From a virus, in IMG/VR virus record IMGVR_UViG_3300015241_000132, positions 1 to 22,417 of that record: 22,417 bases of DNA; one strand, given 5' to 3'. The position numbers were made by a program, and so were the translations under genes. Below, piece after piece: positions 1 through 22,417 of the stretch (the first letter of the stretch is position 1; each line of letters begins with the position of its first letter). The notes beneath the pieces were generated by a model that saw only the letters and a list, made by a program, of their open reading frames with translations, did not search any database and had not been told where the DNA came from.

Positions 1-1690
1 TGCCTCTAAAACCACTGAGGCCCCACTTAAGAAGTTTAAGGAGTGACGGAAGGGAGCCAGGATCCATCTGAAGAAGAGGAGCAGCGGACTGCATAAATAG
101 AGCCAGCGCATTAATGTACTCCGTGCGGTCTTGCTTCATCTGAGCATAGTCCGCAATCGCGAGTGTTTCAGGGCGAACCGTAATTCGCCAACGCGCGTTA
201 TCGGAGTCTTTTATTAACTGAATGGCCTGTTCAACCAACTGCTGATCTTGTCCATCAACCGTTGAAAGAATGTTACTCTGTTTGACGACAGTTTCGGGCT
301 GATAGTGACGTGAGATGATCTCCACCTTGAGTCCTTGGATATCGCCCACCCACCGAGCAAACTCATTTTGAAGCGCTTCAATCCGAATGGAGCCATAGCT
401 GGCCTCCAGTTGATCCCGAGTAGCACTTGTGCGAGCACTACTTATCGCAGCACCTCGCATAATATCATTCATCCCCGTGACTTGATATAGTTGTTGTATC
501 TTTTCACCCTGCTTCGTGGTGAGGATTTCAATAGCATTGACAACTGCTTCAATGGGAACCCAATCAATGACTCCTTTGAGTCCGCCCTTTTCAGCGAATT
601 GCGCCCAGTTATCAACCGGGATGAGGTCATTCTCAATACCCTCAGTGAAGATGCGCTTAACCCCTTCCTGAGATTTATCGTAAATACCGACGAGTTTGCA
701 AGCATCGGTAAGAAGTGAAATTCTAGTTTGCAGTTTGTCAATCTCACGATACAAATCCTTCGCTATAGAATAGTCACTCCTCGGCATGTATTTAGACGTC
801 GTGGCATTGGCGATAAACGGAGGCGGGTCAGGCCAAAACCCCTTCAGTTGGAGAGGATCATCTTGCTTGTCTAAAGTTTCTTCAAATCCTTCTGTCCACC
901 AAGTGACACATTTATCTTTCTTATCCCAAATTTCCCAAACTTCAACCTGAGGGTCAACCGTACTTTCTTTATCTCCGCGACTTCTCATCACGGGACCCTT
1001 ATTTTTGAAGTCAATCTTCTTAGGGTCTATGTCTGGGAATCTTTCTTTGAATTCGTCCTTATCTAACCACGCTCGGTACGCTTTCCAACGAATTTCTGGG
1101 TGCGTACGAGCGGCTGACCAGAGAATATCGCTCCAATGAGTGTAAACGACGTCGACCCACTCTGTATCAAGTTCTTCTACGACAACAGCAGGAGCGATTT
1201 CTTCTCCTGTATCAGGCTGAATAATAGCCTCAAGATTTGTCTTTTTTGAACTGAACTGATATTGAACTCTAGCTGTCCCCAGCCCAGGGAGCAAACGATC
1301 TTGAAGTCCATTTCGGAAGACGGCTGCTATGTCCTCACCAGCTTCTTCTATGTCAGTATTAAGTATGCGAGTAAGCATAAGACCAGCAACCCGCGCAACG
1401 TTATCATCCGCGTCAGCAAAACGACGAGCAACCTCCACTTTCGGCACCTTACCGTAGAGCATACACATGAGGGTAGTCGTATTTGCATGGAAAAGATTCA
1501 GACGAGTGCTTACATCGCCCCATTCATCTTGTTCAGAAGTACGACTATCTAAAAACTTTTCTATTACTTTCTTAGACTCTTTTTGCCATTTTGCGAAATC
1601 TTTCTTAGCCGCAAGCATTTCAACAGACCACCGCTTCCACTGATCAGCAGGAGTATCTTTATATTCTCTGCCACCAGCATCTTCAGTCAT
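1..1690 (-). CDS. Phage portal protein (partial, C-terminus beyond window)
   Basis: An uninterrupted reading frame of 563 codons starts at ATG 1690 and runs off the left edge. It begins MTEDAGGREYKDTPADQW and contains stretches typical of podovirus/P22-like portal proteins, such as NDIMRGAAISSARTSATRDQ followed by a helical segment (LEASYGSIRIEALQNEFARW) and later QLIKDSDNARWRITVRPETL. Portal proteins form the dodecameric ring at one head vertex through which the terminase pumps DNA. The start overlaps the large terminase stop by eight bases (ATGACTGA), so translation of the two is probably coupled. The terminase-portal order and shared leftward direction support the call. The visible length already exceeds 560 residues, consistent with the 600-750 residue podovirus type, but the exact portal subfamily cannot be fixed by eye. 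Confidence 0.85.
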   Translation of the reverse strand, partial: MTEDAGGREYKDTPADQWKRWSVEMLAAKKDFAKWQKESKKVIEKFLDSRTSEQDEWGDVSTRLNLFHANTTTLMCMLYGKVPKVEVARRFADADDNVARVAGLMLTRILNTDIEEAGEDIAAVFRNGLQDRLLPGLGTARVQYQFSSKKTNLEAIIQPDTGEEIAPAVVVEELDTEWVDVVYTHWSDILWSAARTHPEIRWKAYRAWLDKDEFKERFPDIDPKKIDFKNKGPVMRSRGDKESTVDPQVEVWEIWDKKDKCVTWWTEGFEETLDKQDDPLQLKGFWPDPPPFIANATTSKYMPRSDYSIAKDLYREIDKLQTRISLLTDACKLVGIYDKSQEGVKRIFTEGIENDLIPVDNWAQFAEKGGLKGVIDWVPIEAVVNAIEILTTKQGEKIQQLYQVTGMNDIMRGAAISSARTSATRDQLEASYGSIRIEALQNEFARWVGDIQGLKVEIISRHYQPETVVKQSNILSTVDGQDQQLVEQAIQLIKDSDNARWRITVRPETLAIADYAQMKQDRTEYINALALFMQSAAPLLQMDPGSLPSLLKLLKWGLSGFRG

Positions 1691-3065
1691 AACGGCTTCT
1701 CCTGCGCAGACGTTTCTCTCGCTCGTCGAAAAGTAGTGCCAAACGCATATGATCGTTCGGTAAAATCACTTTCTTTTCTTCCGAATCCGAAATACTAATT
1801 TCTTTGGCCACAAGACATAGATAACGAAAAGCATCGGCCCCATGACTGGACCAATCATGCTGTGGGTGGTCAGAAAAGACCTTACGTTCATCATCGTAAG
1901 CTCGTCTATATGCACGTAAGGCCTCTACTCCAATTTCTGTCTTGTTACTAAAGAAGCAAGTAGGAAGTACCTTTCTAACGGCGTTTATACCGTCCTGAAT
2001 ATCAAGTTTAGGAGCAATACGAATAGGAAACTCCGCCTGAAGAAACTGCTCAACTGTGCTCCTGCCCGTCTGTAAACTTTTAGCTCTAGCATCATGTGGG
2101 AGCCAGATCGTCTTATATCTGTAGTTCTTTGACTCCAAAATGTCAAAGTAATACCTAAGAGGCTTACCGTCCGCTTCCAGGTAGTCAATGAGGGCAGTGC
2201 CTCCTGGTCTACGTTGATAGAACCACACAGCCGTTGAGTCGGTATACCCCAAATCGAAGACGGCATCCACTGACTGGTCGGGTTCGTGTTGAATATCAGC
2301 GTAAATCTGCCCTTTTTCCTCCAACTGACTGATAAGTTTCGCGTAGTAAGTTCCCTTGACGGCCGCATTGGGATCACAGAGGTATTCTTGACGATATTGC
2401 TCGTCATCCATCTCCGCCCGCTGAAGTCGTAGTTCTTCATCAGATAAAATGCCAGATTGATCAGCCCTAAGCAGCAGATTAAACCAAGTTGTTCTATAAT
2501 ACTCAGCATCTTTCTGTTCGCCTTCCCGTAGGTCTAATCCTTGGCTTCTCCGATAAATTCCATAGAAGTGATTCTTCCCCTTGAAAGTTCCAATGAAAAC
2601 CGCCCAACCTTTCCGGTCCGCCAATGTCGGCAGAAGGACCGTCCCCCAGACGCTTGGAGACATGTCGCCATACTCGTCAAGAACGACTCCATCAAAGTAT
2701 TGACCTCGGAAGGCGTCAGGGTTATCAGCGCCGTAGATAGAGATTTCTGCGGCGTTGTGCTTAAATTGAACGGTAAGTTCTGATTCACTCGGTTTTTTCG
2801 CCTCTAAGCCTTTCGTATATTCTTTAAGGTACTCCCAAGCAACCTTCTTAGCCTGTTTAAGTAGAGGTCCGACGTAAGCGTATCTTGGCCGCTTCTTCCG
2901 CGAATATATAGCCCTCGTAACCAACTCGTTGATGGACGCGACTGTCTTTCCAGCTCGCCGATGAGCCACCATGCAAGCAAAACGTTGCGATCTTTCATGG
3001 AAGGGTATAAATTGCTTCCGCGGGACGTAGTCAACACGGATTTCACCGTCTTCAGAGAGCTGCAT
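1683..3065 (-). CDS. terL: Terminase large subunit (DNA packaging ATPase-nuclease)
   Basis: A 460-residue protein from ATG 3065. The ATPase half shows Walker A AHRRAGKT (residues 34-41), Walker B VVLDEY (127-132) and a coupling motif near GTFKGKNHF (159-167). The C-terminal RNase H-like nuclease half shows acidic residues D271 (VFDLGYTD), D325 (PHDARAK) and D411 (GADAFRY). It cuts concatemeric phage DNA and drives it through the portal into the prohead. An in-frame TTG at 3089 would add eight residues, but ATG 3065 has a better ribosome site (AAGGTGG, nine bases upstream) and overlaps the preceding gene by only 14 bases. It is followed directly by the portal gene. Length and motif order are normal for the family. 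Confidence 0.95.
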   Translation of the reverse strand: MQLSEDGEIRVDYVPRKQFIPFHERSQRFACMVAHRRAGKTVASINELVTRAIYSRKKRPRYAYVGPLLKQAKKVAWEYLKEYTKGLEAKKPSESELTVQFKHNAAEISIYGADNPDAFRGQYFDGVVLDEYGDMSPSVWGTVLLPTLADRKGWAVFIGTFKGKNHFYGIYRRSQGLDLREGEQKDAEYYRTTWFNLLLRADQSGILSDEELRLQRAEMDDEQYRQEYLCDPNAAVKGTYYAKLISQLEEKGQIYADIQHEPDQSVDAVFDLGYTDSTAVWFYQRRPGGTALIDYLEADGKPLRYYFDILESKNYRYKTIWLPHDARAKSLQTGRSTVEQFLQAEFPIRIAPKLDIQDGINAVRKVLPTCFFSNKTEIGVEALRAYRRAYDDERKVFSDHPQHDWSSHGADAFRYLCLVAKEISISDSEEKKVILPNDHMRLALLFDEREKRLRRRSRYD

Positions 3066-3459
3066 CAAGGAACGCCACCTTCGCCTCAACAGCCCCCCGA
3101 ATTTTCAACAAATTTTCAGCTATTTTCGCGTGTTTTTCGGGTTCGTGCAGCTTCAACCACTGAATTTGTCGTACTCGTTCGTCCAAGTACGCCGTGCAGT
3201 GCCAACAATCAAGACTTTTATCCGAAAATTCATAAAAAGCTGGAAGATTCACTCCCTGTTGAACTAAAAACTTATCAACTTGTAGATCACTCCAGTCTTC
3301 TAACGGAAAGATATACTCAATTCCGCCAATAGTCATGCCAGATTCAACAGGCGACGTGTACTTCTCTTCTTTTCGCTGCCCTCGATAGATTCTTTCTGGT
3401 TTTAGTTCCATCATCTTATCCCACATTGGCCCCCAAATATTCATACCACAACAATTCAT
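3052..3459 (-). CDS. PAPS reductase-like (PP-loop superfamily) protein, C-terminal part
   Basis: This 135-residue frame is the second half of a phage PAPS-reductase-like protein. It shows the CC pair near its start (MNCCGMNIWGPMW), a RGQRKEE segment, the GIEYIFPLEDWSDLQVDKFL block typical of the family's C-terminal lobe, and a SLDCWHCTAY cysteine pair. It lies in the same frame as the N-terminal half (3484-3750), and only a single TAG at 3484-3486 separates them. The nine codons between the stop and this ATG (reading DDVTIQSW) also look like family sequence, so the two were once, or still are, one ~230-residue protein. Whether this half is made alone from ATG 3459, by readthrough, or not at all cannot be told. 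Its end overlaps the large terminase start. Confidence 0.75.
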   Translation of the reverse strand: MNCCGMNIWGPMWDKMMELKPERIYRGQRKEEKYTSPVESGMTIGGIEYIFPLEDWSDLQVDKFLVQQGVNLPAFYEFSDKSLDCWHCTAYLDERVRQIQWLKLHEPEKHAKIAENLLKIRGAVEAKVAFLDAAL

Positions 3460-4970: not shown

Positions 4971-5231
4971 ATGAAAGATAAACCCTGCATCATTGAACAT
5001 TGTCCAAACATGGGGCGAGTGCGCAGCCCCCTCTGTTCAGCTTGCGCACACAACTTCAATTACTGGGAAAGAAAGGGGGCCGTGGCGATTATCGCCAGAC
5101 AAAACACGCTTGAAAAATGGCAAGATAGGATGATGTACCTTGAAAACCGAGACAAGGAATACAGAAATGTTGCGAGATCAATCAGTAACCGCAGAAAAGC
5201 CGGAGTCAAAGCCTACGCCGAAGCCTACTAA
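4971..5231 (+). CDS. Small putative zinc-binding protein (86 aa)
   Basis: Starts at ATG 4971 with GGAG five bases upstream. The N-terminus carries four cysteines in a C-x4-C-x10-C-x2-C pattern (C6, C11, C22, C25: KPCIIEHCPNMG then PLCSACAHNF), which fits a compact zinc ribbon. The rest is basic and helical (ARQNTLEKWQDRMMYLENRD). A small DNA- or RNA-binding protein is a fair guess, but no family is recognised. Its last 65 bases are overlapped by the next gene. Confidence 0.75.
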   Translation: MKDKPCIIEHCPNMGRVRSPLCSACAHNFNYWERKGAVAIIARQNTLEKWQDRMMYLENRDKEYRNVARSISNRRKAGVKAYAEAY

Positions 5232-5676
5232 GCAGATCCGTAGGCAGTTCACAGAAAAGCAAAAAGCGAAAGTCATAGCTTACGCAAAAGAGCATGGAGT
5301 CGCCAATGCGGGTAGGCACTTTGACATCACCACTGGCGTTGTGAGTAGGTGGGTCCAAGAAATAAAAGGAAGGGCAACGGCCCCCAGATACACCGAGGCC
5401 TTCAAGGCCAAAGTGGTCGCGTATGCGCGCGAGCATGGAGCGGTGAAGGCAGCAGAAAAGTATGGTCCTCACAACAGCGCCATCTACGCTTGGCTGCAGA
5501 AAGACCGAAAACCGGCACCCTACACCAAGAATGTGGAGCAGAAGCGCGTTCCGGGACCACTTTACCTACTCGCGCGCAAGCTGGCGGGAGAGGTGAAGCT
5601 TAGGCTCCAAGCCACAGGTGAGTTGGACAATTTGGTGATTTACGCCGACATGCTGGTAAAGGAGATATTGAAATGA
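5167..5676 (+). CDS. Tandem helix-turn-helix DNA-binding protein (169 aa)
   Basis: Starts at ATG 5167 with AAGGA eight bases upstream; a TTG at 5140 in the same frame lacks such a site. After a Lys/Pro-rich N-terminal arm, the protein carries two copies of a transposase-type helix-turn-helix. The first is at about residues 28-66 (FTEKQKAKVIAYAKEHG, then GVVSRWVQEI) and the second at about 75-112 (YTEAFKAKVVAYAREHG, then NSAIYAWLQK). The copies share KAKV-AYA-EHG and look like an internal duplication. No transposase catalytic domain follows; the C-terminal ~55 residues are a helical tail. It probably binds DNA with two HTH units and could regulate phage genes. The stop overlaps the next start (ATGA). 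Confidence 0.8.
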   Translation: MLRDQSVTAEKPESKPTPKPTKQIRRQFTEKQKAKVIAYAKEHGVANAGRHFDITTGVVSRWVQEIKGRATAPRYTEAFKAKVVAYAREHGAVKAAEKYGPHNSAIYAWLQKDRKPAPYTKNVEQKRVPGPLYLLARKLAGEVKLRLQATGELDNLVIYADMLVKEILK

Positions 5677-8098: not shown

Positions 8099-8132
8099 CT
8101 AACACCTAACACCTTGCGGTGTTAGGTGTTAG
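8099..8132 (-). terminator. 15-bp perfect hairpin with GCAA tetraloop, probable terminator of the 8150-8437 gene
   Basis: Positions 8099-8113 and 8118-8132 are perfect reverse complements (two heptad units on each arm). The loop read leftward is GCAA, a GNRA-type tetraloop, followed by TTTCG. It lies just downstream of the stop of the leftward gene, so it probably ends or stabilises that transcript, although the T-run is short. Confidence 0.6.
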
Positions 8133-8152
8133 GTGTTAGGTGTTAGGTGTTA
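8118..8152 (+). repeat. Tandem heptad array (GGTGTTA)5
   Basis: Five exact, uninterrupted copies of GGTGTTA occupy 8118-8152. The last overlaps the TAA stop of the leftward gene. Two inverted copies (TAACACC) at 8100-8113 fold on the first two units. Such an array can change length by slippage or serve as a protein-binding iteron; which applies is not known. Confidence 0.9.
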
Positions 8153-8437
8153 CTTTAGCACCACTACACCAGTGCGCACAAAGTACCGCAGCCACCCGGT
8201 TGCCGGTTCGGCAACGCCACTTTTTGGCAGGCTGGGCGGCTTGGCTGTGCAGGCAGCCAAGTAGGCTTGCGCTGGCTGCCCAACGTGCGCCTGTGCCACC
8301 GCGTACCACGCTGCCCGCGCGCCCCGGTACTTAATGCCAGCCTTAACGCTGGCAATAATTTGGGGCTGTGCCTTGCCCGTTGCAGTTACATTAACCGGTG
8401 CCTGCACCACAGCACCCGGCTTTGTTACCTTAACCAT
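8150..8437 (-). CDS. KYRG/GW-domain small protein, paralogue 1 (95 aa)
   Basis: Starts at ATG 8437 with AGGTGG just upstream. The N-terminus is a flexible Val/Pro/Lys stretch (MVKVTKPGAVVQAPVNVTAT). The conserved domain follows: VKAGIKYRGARAAWYAVAQA, then AKPPSLPKSG and TGWLRYFVRTGV. The same domain occurs at 9863-10141 and 21082-21498. The function is unknown; the protein is small, basic and rich in Ala and Val. The gene is GC-rich, with several internal GCC/GGC hairpins, unlike the AT-rich flank. It has its own promoter (8481-8508), a terminal hairpin and flanking 15-bp direct repeats, so it looks like a self-contained cassette. Confidence 0.8.
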   Translation of the reverse strand: MVKVTKPGAVVQAPVNVTATGKAQPQIIASVKAGIKYRGARAAWYAVAQAHVGQPAQAYLAACTAKPPSLPKSGVAEPATGWLRYFVRTGVVVLK

Positions 8438-8471
8438 ATACCACCTGTTACATGTTGCTTGGCGGTTACCA

Positions 8472-8483
8472 AGTGCATGCACT
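8472..8483. promoter_or_regulatory. Operator-like palindrome at the promoter of paralogue 1
   Basis: AGTGCATGCACT is a perfect 12-bp palindrome that overlaps the edge of the -10 box and the expected transcription start of the leftward promoter. That position suits a repressor dimer. No cognate protein is identified. Confidence 0.4.
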
Positions 8484-8508
8484 ATAGCACACTAGCACCA
8501 TGTTGCAA
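8481..8508 (-). promoter_or_regulatory. Sigma70-type extended -10 promoter for the 8150-8437 gene
   Basis: Read leftward: -35 TTGCAA (8508-8503), a 16-bp spacer, and -10 TATAGT (8486-8481) preceded by TGC, giving an extended -10. The start codon lies about 45 bases downstream. The hairpin CTTGG...CCAAG (8458-8473) falls in the leader. Confidence 0.6.
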
Positions 8509-8551
8509 GGTTTATTTTTGGGGACGATTATGTTAAATGCATGGGCACCAT

Positions 8552-8566
8552 GGTACTTGCCTAGGC
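8552..8566 (+). repeat. 15-bp direct repeat, copy 2 (right of the 8150-8437 gene)
   Basis: GGTACTTGCCTAGGC, identical to 8051-8065, with the flanking GCAT conserved after two bases. It lies just beyond the promoter of the leftward gene, so the pair brackets about 500 bp. Confidence 0.7.
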
Positions 8567-9021
8567 TGGCATTGTACCATGCTCGTCTTCTCTCCTCTCT
8601 CTGCTCGTCATCGCGATGACAAATGAGTTAAGATCTTGATTCTTGAGCGGAATCTTGAGTCTAGATTCATGAATTCTTGAGTCGGAGGTTGGACTCGTGA
8701 GTCCCCACCCCAGCGTGGAGGAAGGGTGGGAATCGTCACTGGGAAGGGTCAAGGGGTCGATTACAGACTTTGTAACGCTATGTAACGCTCACTTTGTTAC
8801 CCCACTATAAAATACATACTTCATATCTATTCCTATATGCATGTATGTATTCTAAGTGTTACAGTGTTACAGATTCCATAACCCCCTGTTTATATTAGTC
8901 GTAACACTGTAACACTTCCTTTCCATCTCAGTGTTACATTGGTTACAGACTCTCCTATCCCCTAGCTCCTCCAACATTGGCATGGTAATATAACACTGGT
9001 GGTACAACATAGGAATCTAAC
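8567..9021. other. Repeat-rich non-coding control or origin-like region
   Basis: About 455 bases without a credible gene. It holds a 14-bp palindrome GTCATCGCGATGAC (8607-8620); four TCTTGA boxes in 47 bp (8634, 8641, 8653, 8675); inverted GGACTC-GT-GAGTCC (8691-8704); CCCACCC/GGGTGGG arms (8704-8730); two TGTAACGC boxes ten bases apart (8771, 8781); three TTACAGA[CT]T boxes (8761, 8867, 8943); and AGTGTTAC/GTAACACT units. A/T-rich stretches lie between (around 8805-8855 and 8880-8900). Iteron-like repeats plus AT-rich DNA suggest a replication origin or a dense operator region. Confidence 0.5.
8855..8916. repeat. Perfect 16-bp inverted repeat made of doubled octamers
   Basis: AGTGTTACAGTGTTAC (8855-8870) is the exact reverse complement of GTAACACTGTAACACT (8901-8916). 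Each arm is two tandem copies of an octamer. A fifth copy, AGTGTTAC, sits at 8930-8937. The 30-base centre is AT-leaning. Confidence 0.85.
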
Positions 9022-9267
9022 ATGCGGACTCTTAAAATAGGTGATTCTATACAAGTGCAGGCCAGTGAAATCCTGGGCACACCTGCCGTGGCCGCAGGCA
9101 TTGTTGAAATCCTGTACCCCCCAGGACATCACTACTACAAGGATGGTCTGTACCTAGTGGTGTGTGCTGATGATCCAGTCGGCCAGCAGCCCGGTACCAC
9201 AGTGGATTCGCAAGGGCGTGTCTTCTGTGGCCCACCCCTCCATGGCTATTTGGTGATGTTCCCATAA
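9022..9267 (+). CDS. Small hypothetical protein (81 aa)
   Basis: Starts at ATG 9022 with AGGA eight bases upstream. It begins MRTLKIGDSIQVQASEILGT and reads like a small beta-barrel (GIVEILYPPGHHYYKDGLYL, then GRVFCGPPLHGYLVMFP). No family is recognised. It is the first gene of a three-gene rightward unit directly downstream of the repeat-rich region, so its expression is probably governed from there. Confidence 0.65.
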   Translation: MRTLKIGDSIQVQASEILGTPAVAAGIVEILYPPGHHYYKDGLYLVVCADDPVGQQPGTTVDSQGRVFCGPPLHGYLVMFP

Positions 9268-9281
9268 CAAGGCGCCATAAC

Positions 9282-9467
9282 ATGAAAATCAAGGTAACAT
9301 TTAAGGATCCTGACTTCCACGTGCAAACCGATTTTGCACACCACCCCGCGAGTGATCTGGGTGGGCTAATAGATCAATTCGTTAAGTGGGGCGAATACCT
9401 AACAATAGAAATAGACGTTACGAGCCGCACCGCGCGCGTGGTGCCCACACAGGAAATCACAACATGA
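9282..9467 (+). CDS. Small hypothetical protein (61 aa)
   Basis: Starts at ATG 9282, 14 bases after the preceding stop, with AAGG upstream. The sequence MKIKVTFKDPDFHVQTDFAH and the later VKWGEYLTIEIDVTSRTARV predict a beta-strand-rich small protein. No family is recognised. Its stop overlaps the next start (ATGA). Confidence 0.65.
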   Translation: MKIKVTFKDPDFHVQTDFAHHPASDLGGLIDQFVKWGEYLTIEIDVTSRTARVVPTQEITT

Positions 9468-9862: not shown

Positions 9863-10141
9863 TTACGCCTCGCTTGCCACGCCGGTTCGTTCAAAGAACC
9901 TCAGCCAGCCCGCAGGCTTTTCAGCCTTCCCACTCTTGGGTAGGCTAGGAGGTTTCTTGGCGGTGGCCTCAAGGAATGAGTCCACGCTCTTTCCATCGTG
10001 CTGCTGCAGAACAGCATACCACGCCTCCCGAGCACCACGGTATTTCATACCGGCCTTGACTTTGAGGAGTTTCACCTTCTCCGGTCCAGCTTCTTTCGCC
10101 ACCGTTTTGACTCCCTTACCACGTTTCACTTCGGCTTTCAT
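9863..10141 (-). CDS. KYRG/GW-domain small protein, paralogue 2 (92 aa)
   Basis: ATG 10141 is preceded by AAGGGG with five-base spacing. The frame is open upstream to TTG 10255, which would add 38 residues (INHVWHLDKVHGKVVISSNV...), so a longer form cannot be excluded. A basic, flexible N-terminus (MKAEVKRGKGVKTVAKEAGP) leads into the conserved domain: VKAGMKYRGAREAWYAVLQQ, AKKPPSLPKSG, AGWLRFFERTGV. It is very similar to the 8150-8437 protein and more distantly to 21082-21498. The function is unknown. The gene closes the leftward cluster and runs into the bidirectional terminator. A perfect TTGACA at 10233-10228 (leftward) hints at its own promoter, but its -10 is poor. Confidence 0.75.
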   Translation of the reverse strand: MKAEVKRGKGVKTVAKEAGPEKVKLLKVKAGMKYRGAREAWYAVLQQHDGKSVDSFLEATAKKPPSLPKSGKAEKPAGWLRFFERTGVASEA

Positions 10142-10247
10142 ATAAGCCCCTTCGGTTTTACAGGCTCTGATGAGAGCCTCTGATTTCGCAGCAACATTAC
10201 TGCTTATGACTACCTTACCATGGACTTTGTCAAGATGCCACACATGA

Positions 10248-10430
10248 TTAATCAAGATTGTAATTGTCTAATAACTGCTTTAGAGCCAAGACAATCGCAA
10301 TAGGGCAATCCTTTCCCGCGCACCAAGAGCGAAATTCACGCTCTCCTACCTCCAATGCACGCGAGGCCTGACGCTGACTCCATTTCAGCTGAGCCAGTAA
10401 TTCACGGAGTTCATTAGCTCGATTTGTCAC
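10248..10430 (-). CDS. Small helix-turn-helix protein (60 aa)
   Basis: From GTG 10430 the protein is essentially one Cro/CI-like HTH domain: NELRELLAQLKWSQRQASRA, then LEVGEREFRSWCAGKDCP. SQRQASRALEVGEREFRSW gives the helix-turn-helix (residues about 19-37). The frame is open further upstream to ATG 10550, but that would overlap the preceding gene by 65 bases. The GTG instead overlaps the stop of a 20-codon coupled ORF (GTGA), in line with neighbouring junctions. It probably binds DNA and is a candidate regulator of one of the palindromic operators in this window. Confidence 0.65.
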   Translation of the reverse strand: MTNRANELRELLAQLKWSQRQASRALEVGEREFRSWCAGKDCPIAIVLALKQLLDNYNLD

Positions 10431-10489
10431 GGGCGAAACTGTGGGTAACGACGGAAGAATTCCCAAAAGTCTGAAAGCTGTAGCTTCAT
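10427..10489 (-). CDS. Possible 20-residue translationally coupled peptide
   Basis: ATG 10489 overlaps the upstream stop as ATGA and its own TGA overlaps the GTG of the HTH gene (GTGA). An AAGGTGG site is placed suitably upstream. It encodes MKLQLSDFWEFFRRYPQFRP. Double coupling matches every other junction in this cluster, so it may be a real micro-gene or simply carry ribosomes to the HTH start. Too short to judge by composition. Confidence 0.4.
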   Translation of the reverse strand: MKLQLSDFWEFFRRYPQFRP

Positions 10490-10677
10490 CTTTCCACCTT
10501 GTCACATTCGCGCTGGGCTTCTTCCACCACAGGCTGAAGAGTATGCGCATATTCAGTCGTCACCGTGAGGACAGTCATGCGCTTCCCCTTAGTTACTTCG
10601 TATTCAAACCCAGCTTTATCCAAGTGACGCTTGAATATCTCAAGCTTCCACGGATCAATCACCACCCCGGCTTTCAT
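10486..10677 (-). CDS. Small conserved phage protein (63 aa)
   Basis: ATG 10677 overlaps the preceding stop (ATGA). The sequence MKAGVVIDPWKLEIFKRHLD, then AGFEYEVTKGKRMTVLTVTT, is of a type seen in many phages as a small protein of unknown function: a beta-alpha-beta unit followed by a helix (QPVVEEAQRECDK). No catalytic residues are visible. Confidence 0.7.
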   Translation of the reverse strand: MKAGVVIDPWKLEIFKRHLDKAGFEYEVTKGKRMTVLTVTTEYAHTLQPVVEEAQRECDKVER

Positions 10678-13077: not shown

Positions 13078-13097
13078 TCACACCTTATTATAGGGGC
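13078..13097 (-). promoter_or_regulatory. Conserved promoter-like element, copy 2 (head of the small-gene cluster)
   Basis: Read leftward: GCCCCTATAATAAGGTGTGA, containing a perfect TATAAT. It equals the 4386-4407 element except for two inserted bases there. It overlaps the last codons and stop of the primase gene, yet lies at the head of the next leftward cluster. No consensus -35 is present. The repeat in two equivalent places supports a regulatory role. Confidence 0.45.
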
Positions 13098-15085
13098 GGC
13101 AGCGTGCTAGGGTCGTAGATATACCATCTCCCCACGGCCCCTGTATCTGGATGTCTTGAAGTCTTAGTCGGCTTTATGCATTTCATTTTCTGAAGAATAG
13201 CAGAAACTTCTCGAGTTAAATGAGGATTAGAAGCTTGATGCCCCATTTCTAGATGGGCAAGCACTTCAGTCATCTTAAAGAGGGTGGGACCGTTTTCCTT
13301 TCCTGGAGTTATTTTATCTGTTTGTTTTCTAGATAAGAATTCTTCAACCTTGTGTTCTAACAAATTAGGAATCACATATTCTTCTGCGTGTTCACTAGCT
13401 CCCTCTACTTCCCAGTATTTGCAGGTTCCTGATTGGTATATGGACCAAGCTTCGGCCCATAGTTGATCTCTTCCACCTTCCAGCCGTGCGAAGTCAAGAA
13501 GTCGATTAACTTCCACAATGGCGTATCGCCGATATCCAGTGGGATCGTGTTGCAGAAAATCATGCCTATTTCCACACCCGTATAACGTGAATCGTCGTGG
13601 AAAAACTTCAACTGACGCACCATACGGGGGTCTAAAGCTATCTTCATTTCTAGTCACCATCGCTTTAAGGTTAGACGACTCTTTACGATTGAATGAATCC
13701 AACTCATCAAATCCCACGCATAGGGCAGAATGTAGGAGCATATGAAGATCTTTATCATCGTGTTCCCCATATAGCGTGAGGTTTGCATCCTTGAATAAGA
13801 TAGATGGCATTGAGGTCTTGCCAGTTCTTTGAGGCCCAACAGTAATGAGCATCCAGTCTATTTTTGTTCCGGGTTTGTCCATTCGGGCACACGCCGATAT
13901 GAGCCACTTACTTCCGACTTCACGTATGAAGGCAGAGTCTCCCACTCCCCAAAAATCTTGAAGCCAAGTACCAAGTCTAGATTGACCGTCCCATTGTAGG
14001 CTTCGTACATATTCAAGGAATGGCGATCTGGCATTTCGCTTCCCCAAGGCTTGAATACACGTGAAGACCGTCCGATGAGTGACTTTGTCGAACCCGAGGT
14101 TATGTTGCAGATAGTTAGCGATGTCAACCTCGGTAAGATCAGGCTGAGCAGGGTTTTCGCCCACCATGATTTTATTGTTATCCTGATTTCGCCATATTCT
14201 TGGGAATGCACTGTGATTCTCCATTAGCTTCATTATGTTTGAAGTATGTTGATAAACAAGCGGCCTGTCTTTCGCATCAGTCTTAAATGCAAGACCATAT
14301 CGCTTGATAAGTGCAGCAGGGGATTGAACGAGATCTTTAGCTTCAATGGCTTGAAGTTCCACAAAACGCTCACGTGCAGATTCCCCCCATTGAACAATGA
14401 GGTCATCAATCTTGCCTGGAACCGAGAGGATTTTGACTTGGATACCCTCAAGTTCCAAGGCGCGAGCGAAGTTTCCATATGCGGTGGAAATGTCATATCT
14501 ATATACGTCGCCGTCTGGAACGATTGCGACCCTAGAGATATTTCTTTGAGCCAACAAGCGCCGTATCCAGGGATGGACAGTTCCAGATCCATCGGGATGC
14601 CGCCAAAGGAAACAGCCTCCAATCCCAAAGGCGGGGAGATTAAGATACTTGAGAATGGATACCGTCTTTTTCTCTCCTTCGGCACAAATCATCTCCTCAC
14701 CGTCGAGTAAGAGCGTTAGAGGATGTATATAGGGAACACTAGAAGGGAGGTCGAACTTTGCTAATTGTTCTTTGCTAGGCTGTGAATACCTTGCTTCCCG
14801 ACTGTATTCGGGCAACTTAAATCTAGTCCTGAACATGATCGGCATGTTCTGGGCGTCGACAATAGGATTCCCTGTTAGATCAAAATAGGGGATATTATAT
14901 CCAGCTTGAGCTCCTTCCTTCAGCGGAAGGATGCCTGGAGTGAATGCCCAGATATCTTTTTGTTCTAACCCAGATCTAGCTAAATCTTCTTCCAGAAACT
15001 TTTGATTTGTACTGTCGTCAACCCTAAAGAATTGTGTTTCGTGCAAGGCCGGGATTTTGAACGGCCGAAAGGAGAGTACCGACAT
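13088..15085 (-). CDS. Primase-helicase: TOPRIM-like (DUF3854-type) plus VirE-family P-loop ATPase
   Basis: A 665-residue protein from ATG 15085, which has AAGGGG four bases upstream; an upstream in-frame start at 15184 lies in a structured control region and is less likely. The N-terminal half has a TOPRIM-like core: MICAEGEKK (about residues 132-140) and VAIVPDGDVYRYD (about 186-198), the acidic pattern of DUF3854/primase-associated domains. The C-terminal half is a virulence-associated-E-type ATPase with Walker A GPQRTGKT (417-424), Walker B GFDELD (458-463) and an arginine-rich sensor region (YGCGNRHDFL, TGYRRYAIVEV). Such proteins prime and unwind DNA for phage replication. It is transcribed away from the polymerase operon, from a shared control region. 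Its stop overlaps the conserved element at 13078-13097. Confidence 0.85.
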   Translation of the reverse strand: MSVLSFRPFKIPALHETQFFRVDDSTNQKFLEEDLARSGLEQKDIWAFTPGILPLKEGAQAGYNIPYFDLTGNPIVDAQNMPIMFRTRFKLPEYSREARYSQPSKEQLAKFDLPSSVPYIHPLTLLLDGEEMICAEGEKKTVSILKYLNLPAFGIGGCFLWRHPDGSGTVHPWIRRLLAQRNISRVAIVPDGDVYRYDISTAYGNFARALELEGIQVKILSVPGKIDDLIVQWGESARERFVELQAIEAKDLVQSPAALIKRYGLAFKTDAKDRPLVYQHTSNIMKLMENHSAFPRIWRNQDNNKIMVGENPAQPDLTEVDIANYLQHNLGFDKVTHRTVFTCIQALGKRNARSPFLEYVRSLQWDGQSRLGTWLQDFWGVGDSAFIREVGSKWLISACARMDKPGTKIDWMLITVGPQRTGKTSMPSILFKDANLTLYGEHDDKDLHMLLHSALCVGFDELDSFNRKESSNLKAMVTRNEDSFRPPYGASVEVFPRRFTLYGCGNRHDFLQHDPTGYRRYAIVEVNRLLDFARLEGGRDQLWAEAWSIYQSGTCKYWEVEGASEHAEEYVIPNLLEHKVEEFLSRKQTDKITPGKENGPTLFKMTEVLAHLEMGHQASNPHLTREVSAILQKMKCIKPTKTSRHPDTGAVGRWYIYDPSTLPPL

Positions 15086-15093
15086 ACGACCCC

Positions 15094-15122
15094 TTGCAAT
15101 CCGCCTAACAGGCGGGTATGAT
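15094..15122 (+). promoter_or_regulatory. Rightward sigma70-type promoter with an operator in its spacer
   Basis: -35 TTGCAA (15094-15099), a 17-bp spacer, and -10 TATGAT (15117-15122). The spacer is filled by the palindrome CCGCCTAACAGGCGG (15101-15115), a 6-bp inverted repeat with a 3-bp centre. A repressor bound there would block polymerase and also sit ten bases or so before the leftward primase start. The expected start is near 15128. Confidence 0.6.
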
Positions 15123-15127
15123 TGACC

Positions 15128-15205
15128 GTGTCGGATGCACGACCCCCTTGGCACCGACACATTCAGCGCCGATAGGAAGCTCAATCCTGTCGGCGCTTTC
15201 CTTTT
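15128..15205 (+). promoter_or_regulatory. Attenuator-like leader with competing hairpins and terminator
   Basis: GTGTCGG (15128-15134) can pair with CCGACAC (15154-15160). A second strong hairpin has AGCGCCGA (15165-15172) paired with TCGGCGCT (15190-15197), extended by a T-G wobble and AGGA/TCCT, followed by TTTCCTTTT, which is a rho-independent terminator for rightward transcripts. CCGACA (15154-15159) can instead pair with TGTCGG (15188-15193) in the terminator arm, giving an antiterminator. A 28-codon ORF (15135-15221) overlaps the terminator. Confidence 0.5.
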
Positions 15206-15722: not shown

Positions 15723-16451
15723 ATGAGCGAAAACATGCCAGTCCGGTGGGATGAGAAGCTTGCTGAATCTGCAAAGGAAGTCGCCGCATTAGAGCGACCA
15801 GCACTCAGTCAGATAAGTCTTCGTGCAGGACAGATGACGTATATGAAGCAAGCTGTTCCTGGGAACAAGCTAACTGTCGTTGTTCTGGCAAGCTGCTTTG
15901 AAAACAAATTATTCAAGGGCAAGTTTGATCCCAATAAGTACGAGGCACCTTCATGCTACGCCTTGAGCCTTACTGGGGAAAACATGGCTCCTCACGAAGA
16001 CGCAAAGGACAAGGAAAGTGAAGTATGCGAGACGTGTGAACAGAACAAGTGGGGATCTGCTGGGGGAGGGTCCAAGGGCAAGGCGTGCAAGCAAGTTCGT
16101 CGCCTCGCACTCATCCCAGCAGGAGCTCTCCAAGACGGAAATGTCGCTTCTGCTGAGCTGGCTGTTATGTCCATCCCTGTTACATCAGCACGGAACTGGG
16201 CCAATTACGTCAACGCCATTGCCGCTGAGCATCAGCGACCCCCTTGGGGAATGCTTACAGAGATCCGTACAGAGCCCGACGCCAAGACTCAATTCCAAGT
16301 GAAATTTGAAGCGAAGGGCATGGTAGCAGAGGACTATCTACCTCAAATCTATAAGCGTGTCGCCCCAGCAGCCCAAACCCTCCTAACTCCATACGACGAC
16401 AGTGGTGTTGTCGCACAGGCTCCGGATCCTCTGCCAAATCGGAAATACTAA
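15723..16451 (+). CDS. Probable phage single-stranded DNA-binding protein (242 aa)
   Basis: Starts at ATG 15723 (an in-frame ATG follows at 15735; the ribosome site is weak for both). The body has beta-rich segments (NKLTVVVLASCFENKLFKGK, SCYALSLTGEN) around a probable zinc site: C102-x2-C105 (VCETCEQNKWGS), then C122 after a Gly/Ser/Lys loop (GGGSKGKACKQVRRL). The C-terminal tail is flexible (YDDSGVVAQAPDPLPNRKY). Proteins of this type commonly sit directly before a phage PolA and are proposed to coat ssDNA at the fork. That role is inferred from position and pattern, since no OB-fold signature can be proven by eye. The stop overlaps the polymerase start (TAATG). Confidence 0.6.
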   Translation: MSENMPVRWDEKLAESAKEVAALERPALSQISLRAGQMTYMKQAVPGNKLTVVVLASCFENKLFKGKFDPNKYEAPSCYALSLTGENMAPHEDAKDKESEVCETCEQNKWGSAGGGSKGKACKQVRRLALIPAGALQDGNVASAELAVMSIPVTSARNWANYVNAIAAEHQRPPWGMLTEIRTEPDAKTQFQVKFEAKGMVAEDYLPQIYKRVAPAAQTLLTPYDDSGVVAQAPDPLPNRKY

Positions 16452-18331
16452 TGGACATCATAGTTGTAGACTATGAAACAGAAGCCATTGTAGGAAATCC
16501 AGTTGTTAATCCGCCGAAGGCGGTAGGAGTCGCAGTCTGGGCTCCAGGAGAAGAGCCAGCTTATCTAGCTTGGGGGCATCCAAGTGAAAACAACTGCTAT
16601 TTCGGCGACGCCCACAAATACCTTACTCGGATTGTGGAGAGTGGACTACCTCTGTTATTTCATAATGCTGCGTTTGACATCAGCGTCAACAATAATACCT
16701 TCTGTAACGCTCAAATCTCTTGGTTAAATGAAGGATGGAAGCGCATCCATGACACGATGTTCTTACTTTTTCTTGCTGATCCTTACAGCCCCACTCTGTC
16801 TCTCAAGCCCAGCGCTGATCGTTATCTTGGCCTCGCAGCCGATGAGCAAACAGCGCTCTATGACTGGATTCTTACCAATGTTTCTGAAGCTACTCGTAAA
16901 ACCGCCGGAGCTTACATTTGTAGAGCACCTGGCGATTTGGTCGGCCGCTATGCAGTTGGTGACGTGGTTCGTACTCGCGGGTTGTTTGATCTACTTCACG
17001 CTAAGATAGTTGAGGAGGGGATGGAAAATGCTTACGATCGTGAGCGTCGTTTACTCCCTATCCTTATGCGCGGGACTCAGCACGGTATCCGTATCGATCG
17101 TGACACTTTGGAAAGACATGAGTCGCAGTACACTGAAGCCGTCCGAAGTGCAGATATACGTCTTGCTGATCTTCTTGGGTGCCCTGTTGATCATCTCGAA
17201 CATGACGAGTCTCTTGCAAACGCCTTGGAAGTGTCAGGAGCCGTAAAAGAATGGATTCTTACTCCTAAGTCTGGTAAGAGGTCGATGGCGAAAGGCAACT
17301 TGAACATCGTCATCCCAGAAATAAAAACTCTGATGGAGTATAGAAGTGGCGTTTCTACATGTTTGCAGACCTTTATGCGTCCGTGGCTCAAGTTTAGTGC
17401 ATCTGATGGACGCGTGCATCCCGGATGGAATCAAGTTCGAACACGAGGGGAGAATGGTGGAGCCGATTCTGGAACACGAACTGGGCGTTTGTCTAGCTCA
17501 GGTCCAAATTTCCAAAACGTGCCGACGGAATTTGTTGATTCGTTGGGCCAACCTCTCCCTGTTCCAGAAGGTCTGCTGCCTTTCCCACTTATGCGACGCT
17601 ATTGCCTCCCAGAACTCGGGCATGTTTGGCTCAAACGTGACTTTAGCTCGCAAGAAATTCGCATTCTTGCTCACTTTGAGGACGGGGGCTTATGTGAGGC
17701 ATATAGAGCTAACCCATCACTAGATCCTCACCAGATGGCAGCAGACCTCATACTCAACCTCATTGGAATTAAGTATGCCAGAAAAGACGTTAAAATCACA
17801 GGATTCAGCATCATCTACGGAACCGGAGCTAACGGACTATCTATACAGCTTGGAACTTCAAGAGAGGATGCTTTTGTTATCAAAGAAGCCTATCTTAATG
17901 CTATGCCCGGAGTGCGGGCCGTCATGCAAGACGTTCAACGTAGAGGCAAGACTGGGCAACCAATCCGTACGTGGGGCGGACGGCTCTATTACGTTGAGGC
18001 TCCTAAAGAGATTGACGGACAACTACGAGATTTCGCTTATAAGCTGCTCAACTATCTCATCCAAGGAAGCGCGGCTGACCAAACTAAAGAATCCCTTAAC
18101 GATTGGAGTGAGACTCGCGGATGGGATCATGTCTTTCTTGCTACCGTTCACGACGAAATCAACATCAGCGCCCCTAAAGAAGACTGGATTGCCGCCATGG
18201 AAAGACTTACGATAGCTATGAATGCTGAGAGATTTGATGTTCCCATGCTCAGTGAAGGTTACATAGGTGAAAACTGGCAAGACATAGACAAGGAAGAAAA
18301 TTATGTTGCGAATCAAAGTGTTGCAGCCTGA
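16451..18331 (+). CDS. Family-A DNA polymerase with 3'-5' exonuclease
   Basis: 626 residues, replicating phage DNA. Proofreading domain: Exo I VVDYETE (D7, E9), Exo II LLFHNAAFD (N72, D76), Exo III YAVGD (Y167, D171). Polymerase domain: TGRLSSSGPNFQNVP (about 344-358); motif A KRDFSSQEIRILAHF (D397); motif B with R444, K448, F452, Y456 (RKDVKITGFSIIYG), which align one-for-one with E. coli Pol I R754, K758, F762, Y766; motif C TVHDE (H567-E569). All catalytic residues are present. There is no 5'-3' exonuclease domain, as is usual in phages. Translation is coupled to the upstream probable SSB (TAATG). The equivalent of Pol I residue 762 is Phe, a choice reported in viral ecology to go with mostly lytic phages. 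Confidence 0.97.
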   Translation: MDIIVVDYETEAIVGNPVVNPPKAVGVAVWAPGEEPAYLAWGHPSENNCYFGDAHKYLTRIVESGLPLLFHNAAFDISVNNNTFCNAQISWLNEGWKRIHDTMFLLFLADPYSPTLSLKPSADRYLGLAADEQTALYDWILTNVSEATRKTAGAYICRAPGDLVGRYAVGDVVRTRGLFDLLHAKIVEEGMENAYDRERRLLPILMRGTQHGIRIDRDTLERHESQYTEAVRSADIRLADLLGCPVDHLEHDESLANALEVSGAVKEWILTPKSGKRSMAKGNLNIVIPEIKTLMEYRSGVSTCLQTFMRPWLKFSASDGRVHPGWNQVRTRGENGGADSGTRTGRLSSSGPNFQNVPTEFVDSLGQPLPVPEGLLPFPLMRRYCLPELGHVWLKRDFSSQEIRILAHFEDGGLCEAYRANPSLDPHQMAADLILNLIGIKYARKDVKITGFSIIYGTGANGLSIQLGTSREDAFVIKEAYLNAMPGVRAVMQDVQRRGKTGQPIRTWGGRLYYVEAPKEIDGQLRDFAYKLLNYLIQGSAADQTKESLNDWSETRGWDHVFLATVHDEINISAPKEDWIAAMERLTIAMNAERFDVPMLSEGYIGENWQDIDKEENYVANQSVAA

Positions 18332-21081: not shown

Positions 21082-21498
21082 ATGACTGATGCACATGCGA
21101 ATTTGACCCCACCGACCAAGAAGATTCCTCCAAAGGCGGCCACGACCGGAAATGGTGGTCCTGTAGGAGCGAAAGAAGCAAAGCCAGCGAAGGATCCTAA
21201 CGCTCCGAAAAAGCCCCGCGCGGCCCGCGCAGACTATGGCTTCAGCCCGGACAGCACGATTCATATCGTGAAAGATAAGGACAACAAATACCGAGGTCAG
21301 CGTCTGGACTGGTTCAACAAGATCGTGGCTTTTGAAGGGAAGAAGGTTTCCGAGTTCATGACCAAGTACGAAAAGGCCCAGACGTCTAAGGGCACGGCTG
21401 ATCCGCCCCGTGGATGGGTCCGCTTTTTCGTACAGGATGGTACGGTGACGCTCAGTAAGCCTCCGGCGACTCCTGCGGCCACTCCCGCCGCAGCCTGA
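21082..21498 (+). CDS. KYRG/GW-domain small protein, paralogue 3 (138 aa)
   Basis: ATG 21082 with GGAG upstream. A long basic, Pro/Ala/Lys-rich N-terminal arm (residues 1-55, with KKPRAARAD) precedes the domain: DNKYRGQRLDWFNKIVAFEG, then PPRGWVRFFVQDGTVTL. A short Pro/Ala/Thr tail follows. The KYRG-x4-W and GW-V/L-R-F/Y-F signatures match the proteins at 8150-8437 and 9863-10141, but the PPSLPKSG linker of those two is replaced by a different segment. The charge and disordered arm suggest nucleic-acid binding (inference). It has its own promoter and is followed by a hairpin, so it is a single-gene unit. Confidence 0.8.
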   Translation: MTDAHANLTPPTKKIPPKAATTGNGGPVGAKEAKPAKDPNAPKKPRAARADYGFSPDSTIHIVKDKDNKYRGQRLDWFNKIVAFEGKKVSEFMTKYEKAQTSKGTADPPRGWVRFFVQDGTVTLSKPPATPAATPAAA

Positions 21499-21990: not shown

Positions 21991-22066
21991 CTGGGATCTT
22001 CTTCGTAAGCTAATTATAAGATACGCTGAGGCATCTCGGGCAGATGAAACGCCTCGTTCGAGGTGA
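21983..22066 (+). pseudogene. 5' end of a phage gene cut by the junction with chromosomal DNA
   Basis: ATG 21983 overlaps the preceding stop by eight bases (ATGACTAA). The first codons (MTNWDLLRKLIIRY) look like a normal phage start, but from about 22014-22025 the sequence is the reverse complement of glutathione reductase and the frame soon ends in TGA. So only the first 10-14 codons are likely to be phage. The rest of the gene is missing. Confidence 0.55.
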
Positions 22067-22417
22067 TCGCCAGTTCCTTGCCCGGAATATCGGGAACATA
22101 TGGCCAGCCGCCGGTTGCGATCAGGATGCGCTCAGCCGTCACCCGCTCTCCGGTTGACAGCGCAACTGTGTGAGCATCGACCAATGAGGCGCGCGCCTCG
22201 TAAATCTTAACCCCGACCTTTTCCATGATCTGGCGATAGATCACGTTCAGGCGCGAAATTTCCGCATCCTTGTTGCGGATCAGGTCGGACCAGGTGAAAA
22301 CCGCCTCGTCGACCTTCCAGCCATAACCGGCGGCATCTTCGAAGCCATGTCCAAAGCCGGCGGAATAGGCGAGCAGCTTTTTCGGAATGCAGCCGACATT
22401 GACGCACGTGCCGCCCA
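22014..22417 (-). pseudogene. gor: Glutathione reductase fragment (foreign, chromosomal origin), truncated at both ends
   Basis: Leftward from the window edge the frame reads GGTCVNVGCIPKKLLAYSAG, the redox-active disulfide motif of glutathione reductase (NADPH-dependent flavoprotein). It continues through GYGWKVDEAVFTWSDLIRNK, IYRQIMEKVGVKIYEARASL, ILIATGGWPYVPDIPG and FHLPEMPQRIL, then hits TAA at the junction. The true protein would go on (NAD-binding and dimerisation domains). The FAD-binding start lies beyond the window. The stretch is GC-rich, unlike the AT-rich phage genes just left of it. The style suggests an alphaproteobacterial chromosome, but this is an impression. It shows a contig chimera or, less likely, a real insertion boundary. 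Confidence 0.9.

Follow-up and report, generated by a model that had tools for sequence, protein, structure and literature searches.

The stretch at 8761-8951 of the window, the term used here for the whole of a linear IMG/VR virus record of 22,417 bp, is very probably, as read from its sequence, the replication origin of this phage, of the SF3/VapE initiator helicase kind. The origin reading, raised in an earlier note on this DNA, is supported by a layout conserved in relatives, a tie to VapE and a repeat cluster located directly behind the VapE gene in distant relatives. What is new here is that a free-standing phage would have its origin apart from the initiator gene.

Repeat cluster and gene setting in the window

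The repeats in the window are real and far beyond chance. They occupy the gap between an ORF starting on the minus strand at 8482 and another starting on the plus strand at 9022. As the earlier note had described for 8567-9021, no convincing gene is present, and the cluster stretch is overlapped only by a mechanical 63-aa ORF with a TTG start (8561-8752). The element common to the window and its relatives is narrower than 8567-9021, extending over about 8761-8951, and the features of the region are as follows.

8607-8620: 14-bp palindrome GTCATCGCGATGAC
8771-8789, minus strand: left iteron pair, leftward, TGTAACGC at 8771-8778 and 8781-8788, each with one mismatch to the rightward consensus AGTGTTACA; pairs occupy the same place in most relatives
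8790-8854: AT-rich stretch, 65 bp, 71% A+T, starting near CCCCACTATAAAATACA; proposed melting region (DNA unwinding element)
8854-8870 and 8901-8917: perfect 17-bp inverted repeat, arms 30 nt apart
8855-8871, plus strand: doubled rightward iterons AGTGTTACAGTGTTACA, period 8 bp
8872-8899: spacer from the rightward to the leftward pair, its length alike in most relatives
8900-8916, minus strand: doubled leftward iterons, pairing with 8855-8871 as the 17-bp inverted repeat
8930-8951, plus strand: rightward iteron AGTGTTACA (8930-8938), then a weaker copy GGTTACAGACT (8941-8951)

The octamer AGTGTTAC occurs five times in the entire window, always inside 8855-8937 (at 8855, 8863, 8901, 8909 and 8930), which bears out the doubled octamers and the fifth copy at 8930 reported earlier; its mean in shuffled windows is 0.37, and five copies were reached in 0 of 100. 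With correction for looking everywhere, the top 8-mer density per 100 bp is 5, against a maximum of 3 when the whole window was shuffled 60 times with dinucleotides preserved. The inverted repeat is perfect, as had been claimed, but is 17 bp and not 16 bp long. The three TTACAGAYT boxes (8761, 8867 and 8943; 0.30 expected) were recovered and abut or overlap iterons, as were the two TGTAACGC boxes ten bases apart (8771 and 8781), a word with two more copies elsewhere in the window. Two other components of the original description are present but fall outside the conserved element, namely the palindrome and the four TCTTGA boxes (8634-8680), the latter being an ordinary word with 22 copies in the window against 15.7 expected. 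A GC-skew switch, suggested as a check, does not mark the origin: the cumulative skew peaks locally near 8 kb, tracking gene direction.

GANTC, the CcrM methylation site of alphaproteobacteria, has eight sites within 120 bp at 8638-8735 (0.47 expected), beside the proposed origin, and 13 within 250 bp of it (2.3 expected). As a conserved methylation-controlled part the cluster was rejected, since 16 relatives pooled give 47 sites against 41.6 expected, and GANTC was therefore left out of the model; methylation control in the window's phage alone is conceivable. Seven copies of GGTGTTA at 8100-8152, two leftward followed by five rightward and arranged about a short loop, lie immediately 3' of the minus-strand gene at 8150-8482 and could constitute a hairpin terminator or a repeat-length switch.

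The terminase and putative portal genes lie on the left of the window on the minus strand, followed by small plus-strand genes at 4.5-8 kb and the repeat stretch, after which comes a minus-strand block with VapE at its upstream end. Rightward from 15.7 kb are aligned the 15723-16451 protein, the family-A polymerase, an exonuclease, an ORF that we take to be VRR-NUC-like (Pfam gave no match there) and an SNF2 helicase. The genes relevant to replication and packaging are listed below.

2-1690, minus strand: putative portal, by place and size; homologue in locus L062, no Pfam match for this ORF
1683-3089, minus strand: terminase large subunit (PF03237, 5.9e-7)
13088-15184, minus strand: proposed initiator, a VapE-type SF3 helicase whose N-terminal part resembles DnaG primase (PF05272, 2.3e-51; 7pds_A profile match, 5.2e-73)
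13088-13387, minus strand: C-terminal domain of VapE (residues 600-698), modelled with a winged-helix-like fold; proposed from distant relatives as the reader of the iterons
15723-16451, plus strand: protein with PHROGs matches only of unknown function, its gene immediately preceding that of the polymerase in almost all relatives
16451-18331, plus strand: family-A DNA polymerase with 3'-5' exonuclease domain (PF00476, 4.3e-48; PF01612, 1.9e-6)

The VapE start at 15184 is a mechanical TTG, and an in-frame ATG at 15085 is likelier. The AlphaFold model of the window VapE (mean pLDDT 82) displays a strand-helix-helix-strands arrangement at 634-690. Structural search using Foldseek returned first SaPI PriRep1 bound to dsDNA (7pds; E 7e-23), which is the best solved relative of this protein, followed by NrS-1 and D5-type helicases and by the DnaG-type primase 2au3 (E 2e-6). 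The proposed origin lies 4.07 kb from the VapE stop, with a block of small genes between them. The 15723-16451 protein occupies the place of an SSB-like partner in related systems, as compared with portions of PMC10061031.

Other genes of the window include three paralogous small proteins (8150-8482, minus; 9863-10255, minus; 21082-21498, plus) that share a core of KYRGxR...W and GW(L/V)R(F/Y)F, have no Pfam or PHROGs match and are present in several relatives too. The plus-strand gene at 5140-5676 encodes 178 aa with two tandem transposase-type helix-turn-helix units, in which a catalytic domain was not seen, and its product is a predicted tandem DNA reader. At the right end, 22014-22415 (minus) encodes part of a flavoprotein resembling glutathione reductase (PF07992, 1.1e-15); the segment may be either a carried gene or host DNA beyond the edge of a prophage.

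Conserved layout in relatives and clusters behind VapE

Doubled inverted octamers (two GTGTTAC octamers, with inverted copies following within 20-50 bp) were sought by pattern across 2.9 million viral contigs, and locus L006 was the sole match. L006 is a true relative, with VapE and TerL 62% and 55% identical to those of the window, respectively, and its element is placed between TerL and VapE, as in the window, with identical words. Single-sequence search revealed no close VapE relatives, no DNA-level relatives were found among cultured phages, and L003, considered as a relative via the 9022 gene, was a chance match. Further relatives were collected with a polymerase profile (best 80 of 208 loci) and a VapE profile (best 80 of 93).

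The same layout was observed in 14 of 18 close regions, a count that is descriptive and not blind since limits and iteron words were picked by eye: two leftward iterons, an AT-rich gap, two rightward iterons, a spacer of ~30 bp and a leftward copy, the common form ending with leftward and rightward copies after the spacer. The expectation that the repeats would be kept in relatives thus held: L006 carries an identical word at the matching position, and most others have the layout with other words. The words number at least ten across the regions of this layout, those of the relatives comprising TTAGTTACA, TTGGTTACA, ACTGTTGCA, TGACTACAC, ACTTGGCAAC, TCGGTTACC, ATCAGTTAAG, AGCCCTACA, CTGCTTACA, CCGGTTAC, AGTGTTGCA and AGTGGCACA/G. 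The full iteron order is missing in the remaining four regions (L007, L011, L094 and L100), and in L095, L104 and L107, which are close VapE rows, no cluster could be assigned to the layout. Of the 16 regions measured, window included, 15 have an AT-rich gap of 53-87 bp with 62-74% A+T, the exception being L096 (121 bp, 76% A+T). Across the window (8790-8899) and 15 relatives, the AT-rich stretch tends to open with CCCCTATAAAAA and the spacer with CCCTTGTAAAAACA; both words look enriched but were chosen after viewing the same sequences, so that their p-values are not independent evidence; in L063, L089, L098 and L103 the spacer opens with CAAGCACTT. All three boxes are possible opening or priming sites.

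Other repeats were noted in these relatives. In L107, 11 copies of TCGGAGA lie on mixed strands 1.9 kb behind VapE (2888-3104), an arrangement not shared by the family's other origins. Many copies of TTATGTTAA/TTAACATAA are present in L007 (1300-2210), L010 (3340-4130) and L015 (750-1340), where they surround a gene of the KYRGxR...W paralogous family and, in L010, are interleaved with the origin iterons; they are possibly operators of a shared regulator.

In distant relatives the cluster lies directly behind VapE. The distant set comprised 66 distinct VapE loci with 27-38% identity, for the most part prophages of Paenibacillus type and metagenome contigs, obtained from 110 loci by removing 22 duplicates (judged on the last 250 aa) to leave 88, and then 20 close loci and two that were too short (L140 and L142). 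A blind test took the commonest 7-mer, counted on both strands within 260 bp, in the region reaching from 50 bp ahead of the VapE stop to 500 bp beyond it. At least five copies of one 7-mer were found in 54 of the 66 loci, many of which are closely related to one another, against 2 of 1388 control tiles from the same loci, and at least six copies in 48 of 66 against 0 of 1388. When the control was restricted to other intergenic gaps, the corresponding values were 2/98 and 0/98. The cluster behind VapE is missing in 12 of the 66. The words vary among the distant loci (CTGATAC, ACTGTCC, CGGCAAC, CTGTTAC, CTGCAAC and others), and a cluster directly downstream of VapE is also found in L090/L091/L093, L108 and L109. 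Seven cultured phages present a mixed picture, with a clear cluster in Marinobacter phage PS3 (GGTCACC, seven copies; cluster 27-261 bp behind VapE) and Enterococcus phage phiFL4A (GTATCCA, nine copies), a moderate one in Caulobacter phage Jess A (GGTTACA, four copies forming two divergent pairs) and in NatCom_6238, an Agathobacter phage (four copies), and neither grade reached by S-2L, Javan100 and BU2-2.

The behaviour of the cluster in relatives also bears on what else it might be. The earlier note had set a multi-operator switch beside the origin. Such a switch would be a control region where a phage regulator acts on the repeats to control the divergent genes (8150-8482, minus; 9022, plus). 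The repeats do lie in a divergent gap between two small genes, a dimeric regulator would suit inverted repeats, and small regulator-like proteins are encoded in the window (10248-10550, PHROG transcriptional regulator, 2.5e-4). Such a region is nevertheless unlikely, as the neighbouring genes differ in relatives while the AT-rich layout and the link to VapE persist, the doubled iterons of 8-bp period with an AT-rich gap better fit published VapE/SaPI-type origins, and the single promoter-like match at 8400-9300, fewer than the 1.6 expected by chance, lies outside the repeats.

A site for recombination, partition or packaging (att arm sites, parS-like or pac) is very improbable. Sites of this type also bear clusters of short direct and inverted repeats, and the terminase genes are at the same end of the window as the cluster; however, no integrase or ParA/ParB family was found among the 16 window proteins scanned, and the cluster accompanies VapE and not terminase, being located behind VapE in distant loci. 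Slimmer still is the chance of an RNA element, with the inverted repeat folding into a leader hairpin of the 9022 gene. A transcript across the repeat could fold into a 17-bp stem with a 30-nt loop, but the iterons of relatives are oriented on the two sides of the AT-rich stretch in a way that does not give a single hairpin, in several relatives the rightward pair is followed by one leftward copy only, and the stretch has no Rfam match and, at 8400-9300, no terminator-like site.

VapE wing residues and iteron words

Co-variation between VapE and its repeats was analysed in 60 distant loci whose iterons could be used, which gave 1653 usable pairs. Iteron 6-mer sharing follows the identity of the C-terminus, with a partial rank correlation of 0.56 when core and N-terminus are held constant, a value reached in 0 of 500 permutations (largest 0.12), and the partial correlations for the core and the N-terminus are -0.19 and -0.07, respectively. 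The loci L122 and L148 have cores 99%, N-termini 92% and C-termini 75% identical, and their iterons are wholly different. By residue association in 48 loci of three iteron classes, position 777 (L, V or K) stands 1.3 bits above shuffles; the peaks are at 777, 769 and 779, with lesser ones at 754 and 771. Third codon positions at conserved residues of the same stretch give 0.00-0.03 bits, and as these silent positions are uninformative, simple linkage to a nearby origin does not explain the residue signal. Residues 784-785 were set aside because they overlap the iterons in many loci.

The link is weaker in the window's own family (16 genomes), where the partial correlation is 0.26 and 40 of 2000 permutations were as high; the window and L006 share AGTGTTACA while their VapE C-termini are only 27% identical. 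For these reasons, we infer iteron reading by the window's VapE C-terminal domain and do not regard it as shown. No clear rule emerged when the code described below was carried over to this family.

On a tree of the N-terminus and core (52 rows, C-terminal domain excluded), the iteron class changes at least 19 times. T779 accompanies ACTG words and another residue accompanies CGG words in 51/51 labelled loci, a count that leaves out one of the 52 rows ('other', L115) and includes labels refined by hand, from the consensus displayed beside the residues, for L191, L125, L120, L190 and L132. The residue 779 rule agrees in 11/11 independent pairs on supported branches (p = 0.00098), and the class pairs of residue 777 agree in 36/37, 21/22 and 32/33. 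L120, which combines V777 with T779, has the mixed word ACTGCAAC. In the model of the L152 C-terminal domain (146 residues; mean pLDDT 79, about 90 in the wing), residues 769 and 771 are on one strand of a hairpin and 777 and 779 on the other, and the strand register suggests that 769/779 and 771/777 would be facing pairs. When this model was compared with known structures, 7pds was the sole match below 0.001.

The rules, fixed beforehand, were applied to 38 held-out loci drawn from overlapping sets of 104, 392 and 398 genomes, of which 12 were already in training, six had no ORF passing the filter and 20 were new, 19 of these being predictable. Scorable loci were the 11 that carry one of six known words at least three times; the whole word was predicted correctly in 9/11 and its first half in 11/11, the misses being L215 (I777, ACTGCAAC) and L236 (K771 with ACTGATAC). 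The latter defeated a further rule, taken from L125 and L191, by which K771 turns ACTGATAC into ACTGTTAC. The other eight loci carry other words. L209 (K777) has ATCTGTC, and L213, L230 and L231 (V777) have CAAC words without CGG; this loosely supports the 777 rule and goes against the K/L779 rule. Four held-out Q777 loci have no rule.

These observations point to a reading that we consider evenly poised between holding and failing, in which VapE initiators carry a small recognition code: the wing pairs 769/779 and 771/777 (L152 numbering) would read the iteron halves, and phages would switch origin identity repeatedly by changing these residues and the repeats together. Within that reading, T779 would specify ACTG and R/K/L779 CGG, while L777, V777 and K777 would specify xTAC, CAAC and TCC, respectively. 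No description of a wing/iteron code for VapE phages was found in the full texts of the open-access PMC library, and the recognition-code lead is the part that would be likely to surprise a specialist.

Proposed initiation and known replicons

At the proposed origin, the winged helix of the VapE C-terminal domain would bind the iterons in opposite orientations; VapE would probably do so as two hexamers facing each other across the AT-rich stretch. Binding would melt 8790-8854 and allow the VapE helicase to load on each strand, after which the primase-like domain and the family-A polymerase of the phage would begin synthesis. Since a block of small genes separates VapE from the origin, the initiator would act across about 4 kb. 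Iteron word and wing residues would change together, and therefore close phages could have mutually unreadable origins.

The α protein of phage P4, a primase-helicase initiator that binds octamer iterons at ori/crr, is alike to the window system. It differs in belonging to another protein family and in its iteron word, and ori and crr are two separate sites.

The closest comparison is with SaPI/PICI replicons, for which the sources were drawn on in part. According to passages of PMC7581432, SaPI Rep has iterons directly downstream of its own gene that are read by its C-terminal domain, and Cch2 has three 5-nt iterons, its C-terminal domain binding the repeats downstream of the gene and, when isolated, its own site. 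Excerpts of PMC6092414 describe E. coli PICI origins as always displaying an AT-rich region flanked by two iteron sets, and a PICI rep-ori segment as driving plasmid replication in E. coli. The window resembles these systems in its two iteron sets around an AT-rich stretch (8771-8938, 65-bp gap, 71% A+T; definition from the legend of Fig. 2 in PMC6092414), in its element-encoded SF3-type helicase (PF05272, 2.3e-51; 7pds, 5.2e-73) and in the C-terminal domain as reader, which is published for SaPI Rep and Cch2 in the portions seen of PMC7581432 and PMC6092414 and inferred in the window. In contrast, the window origin does not directly follow the initiator gene but stands 4.07 kb away from the VapE stop, and the phage has its own terminase and family-A polymerase and is no satellite. 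The window element would thus work like a PICI replicon but is not one. The comparison with satellites also drew on parts of PMC7145576.

Sections of PMC10061031 describe pairs of family-A polymerase and SSB alongside such helicases and annotate Cch2-related helicases as COG3378/D5_N. SCCmec Cch2 / CCPol-MP is similar to the window in combining an initiator helicase, a family-A polymerase and a partner protein; as judged from the portions seen of PMC7581432 and PMC10061031, the window differs in its PF05272 VapE, its 8-9-nt iterons and its putative partner at 15723-16451. Compared with the TV-Pol / PolA-SSB module, the window has the polymerase and the helicase, and 15723-16451 matches only PHROGs of unknown function.

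A two-sided iteron cluster behind the VapE gene would allow origins to be found from sequence alone in many uncultured phages. For one subfamily, the analysis offers a testable link between the DNA word that an SF3 initiator helicase requires and a few of its residues; naturally occurring pairs that are almost identical, such as L122 and L148, can serve as controls. If the code is true, co-resident phages or satellites would be unable to fire each other's origins. How initiators choose their origin, and how an origin changes without killing the replicon, would become directly testable.
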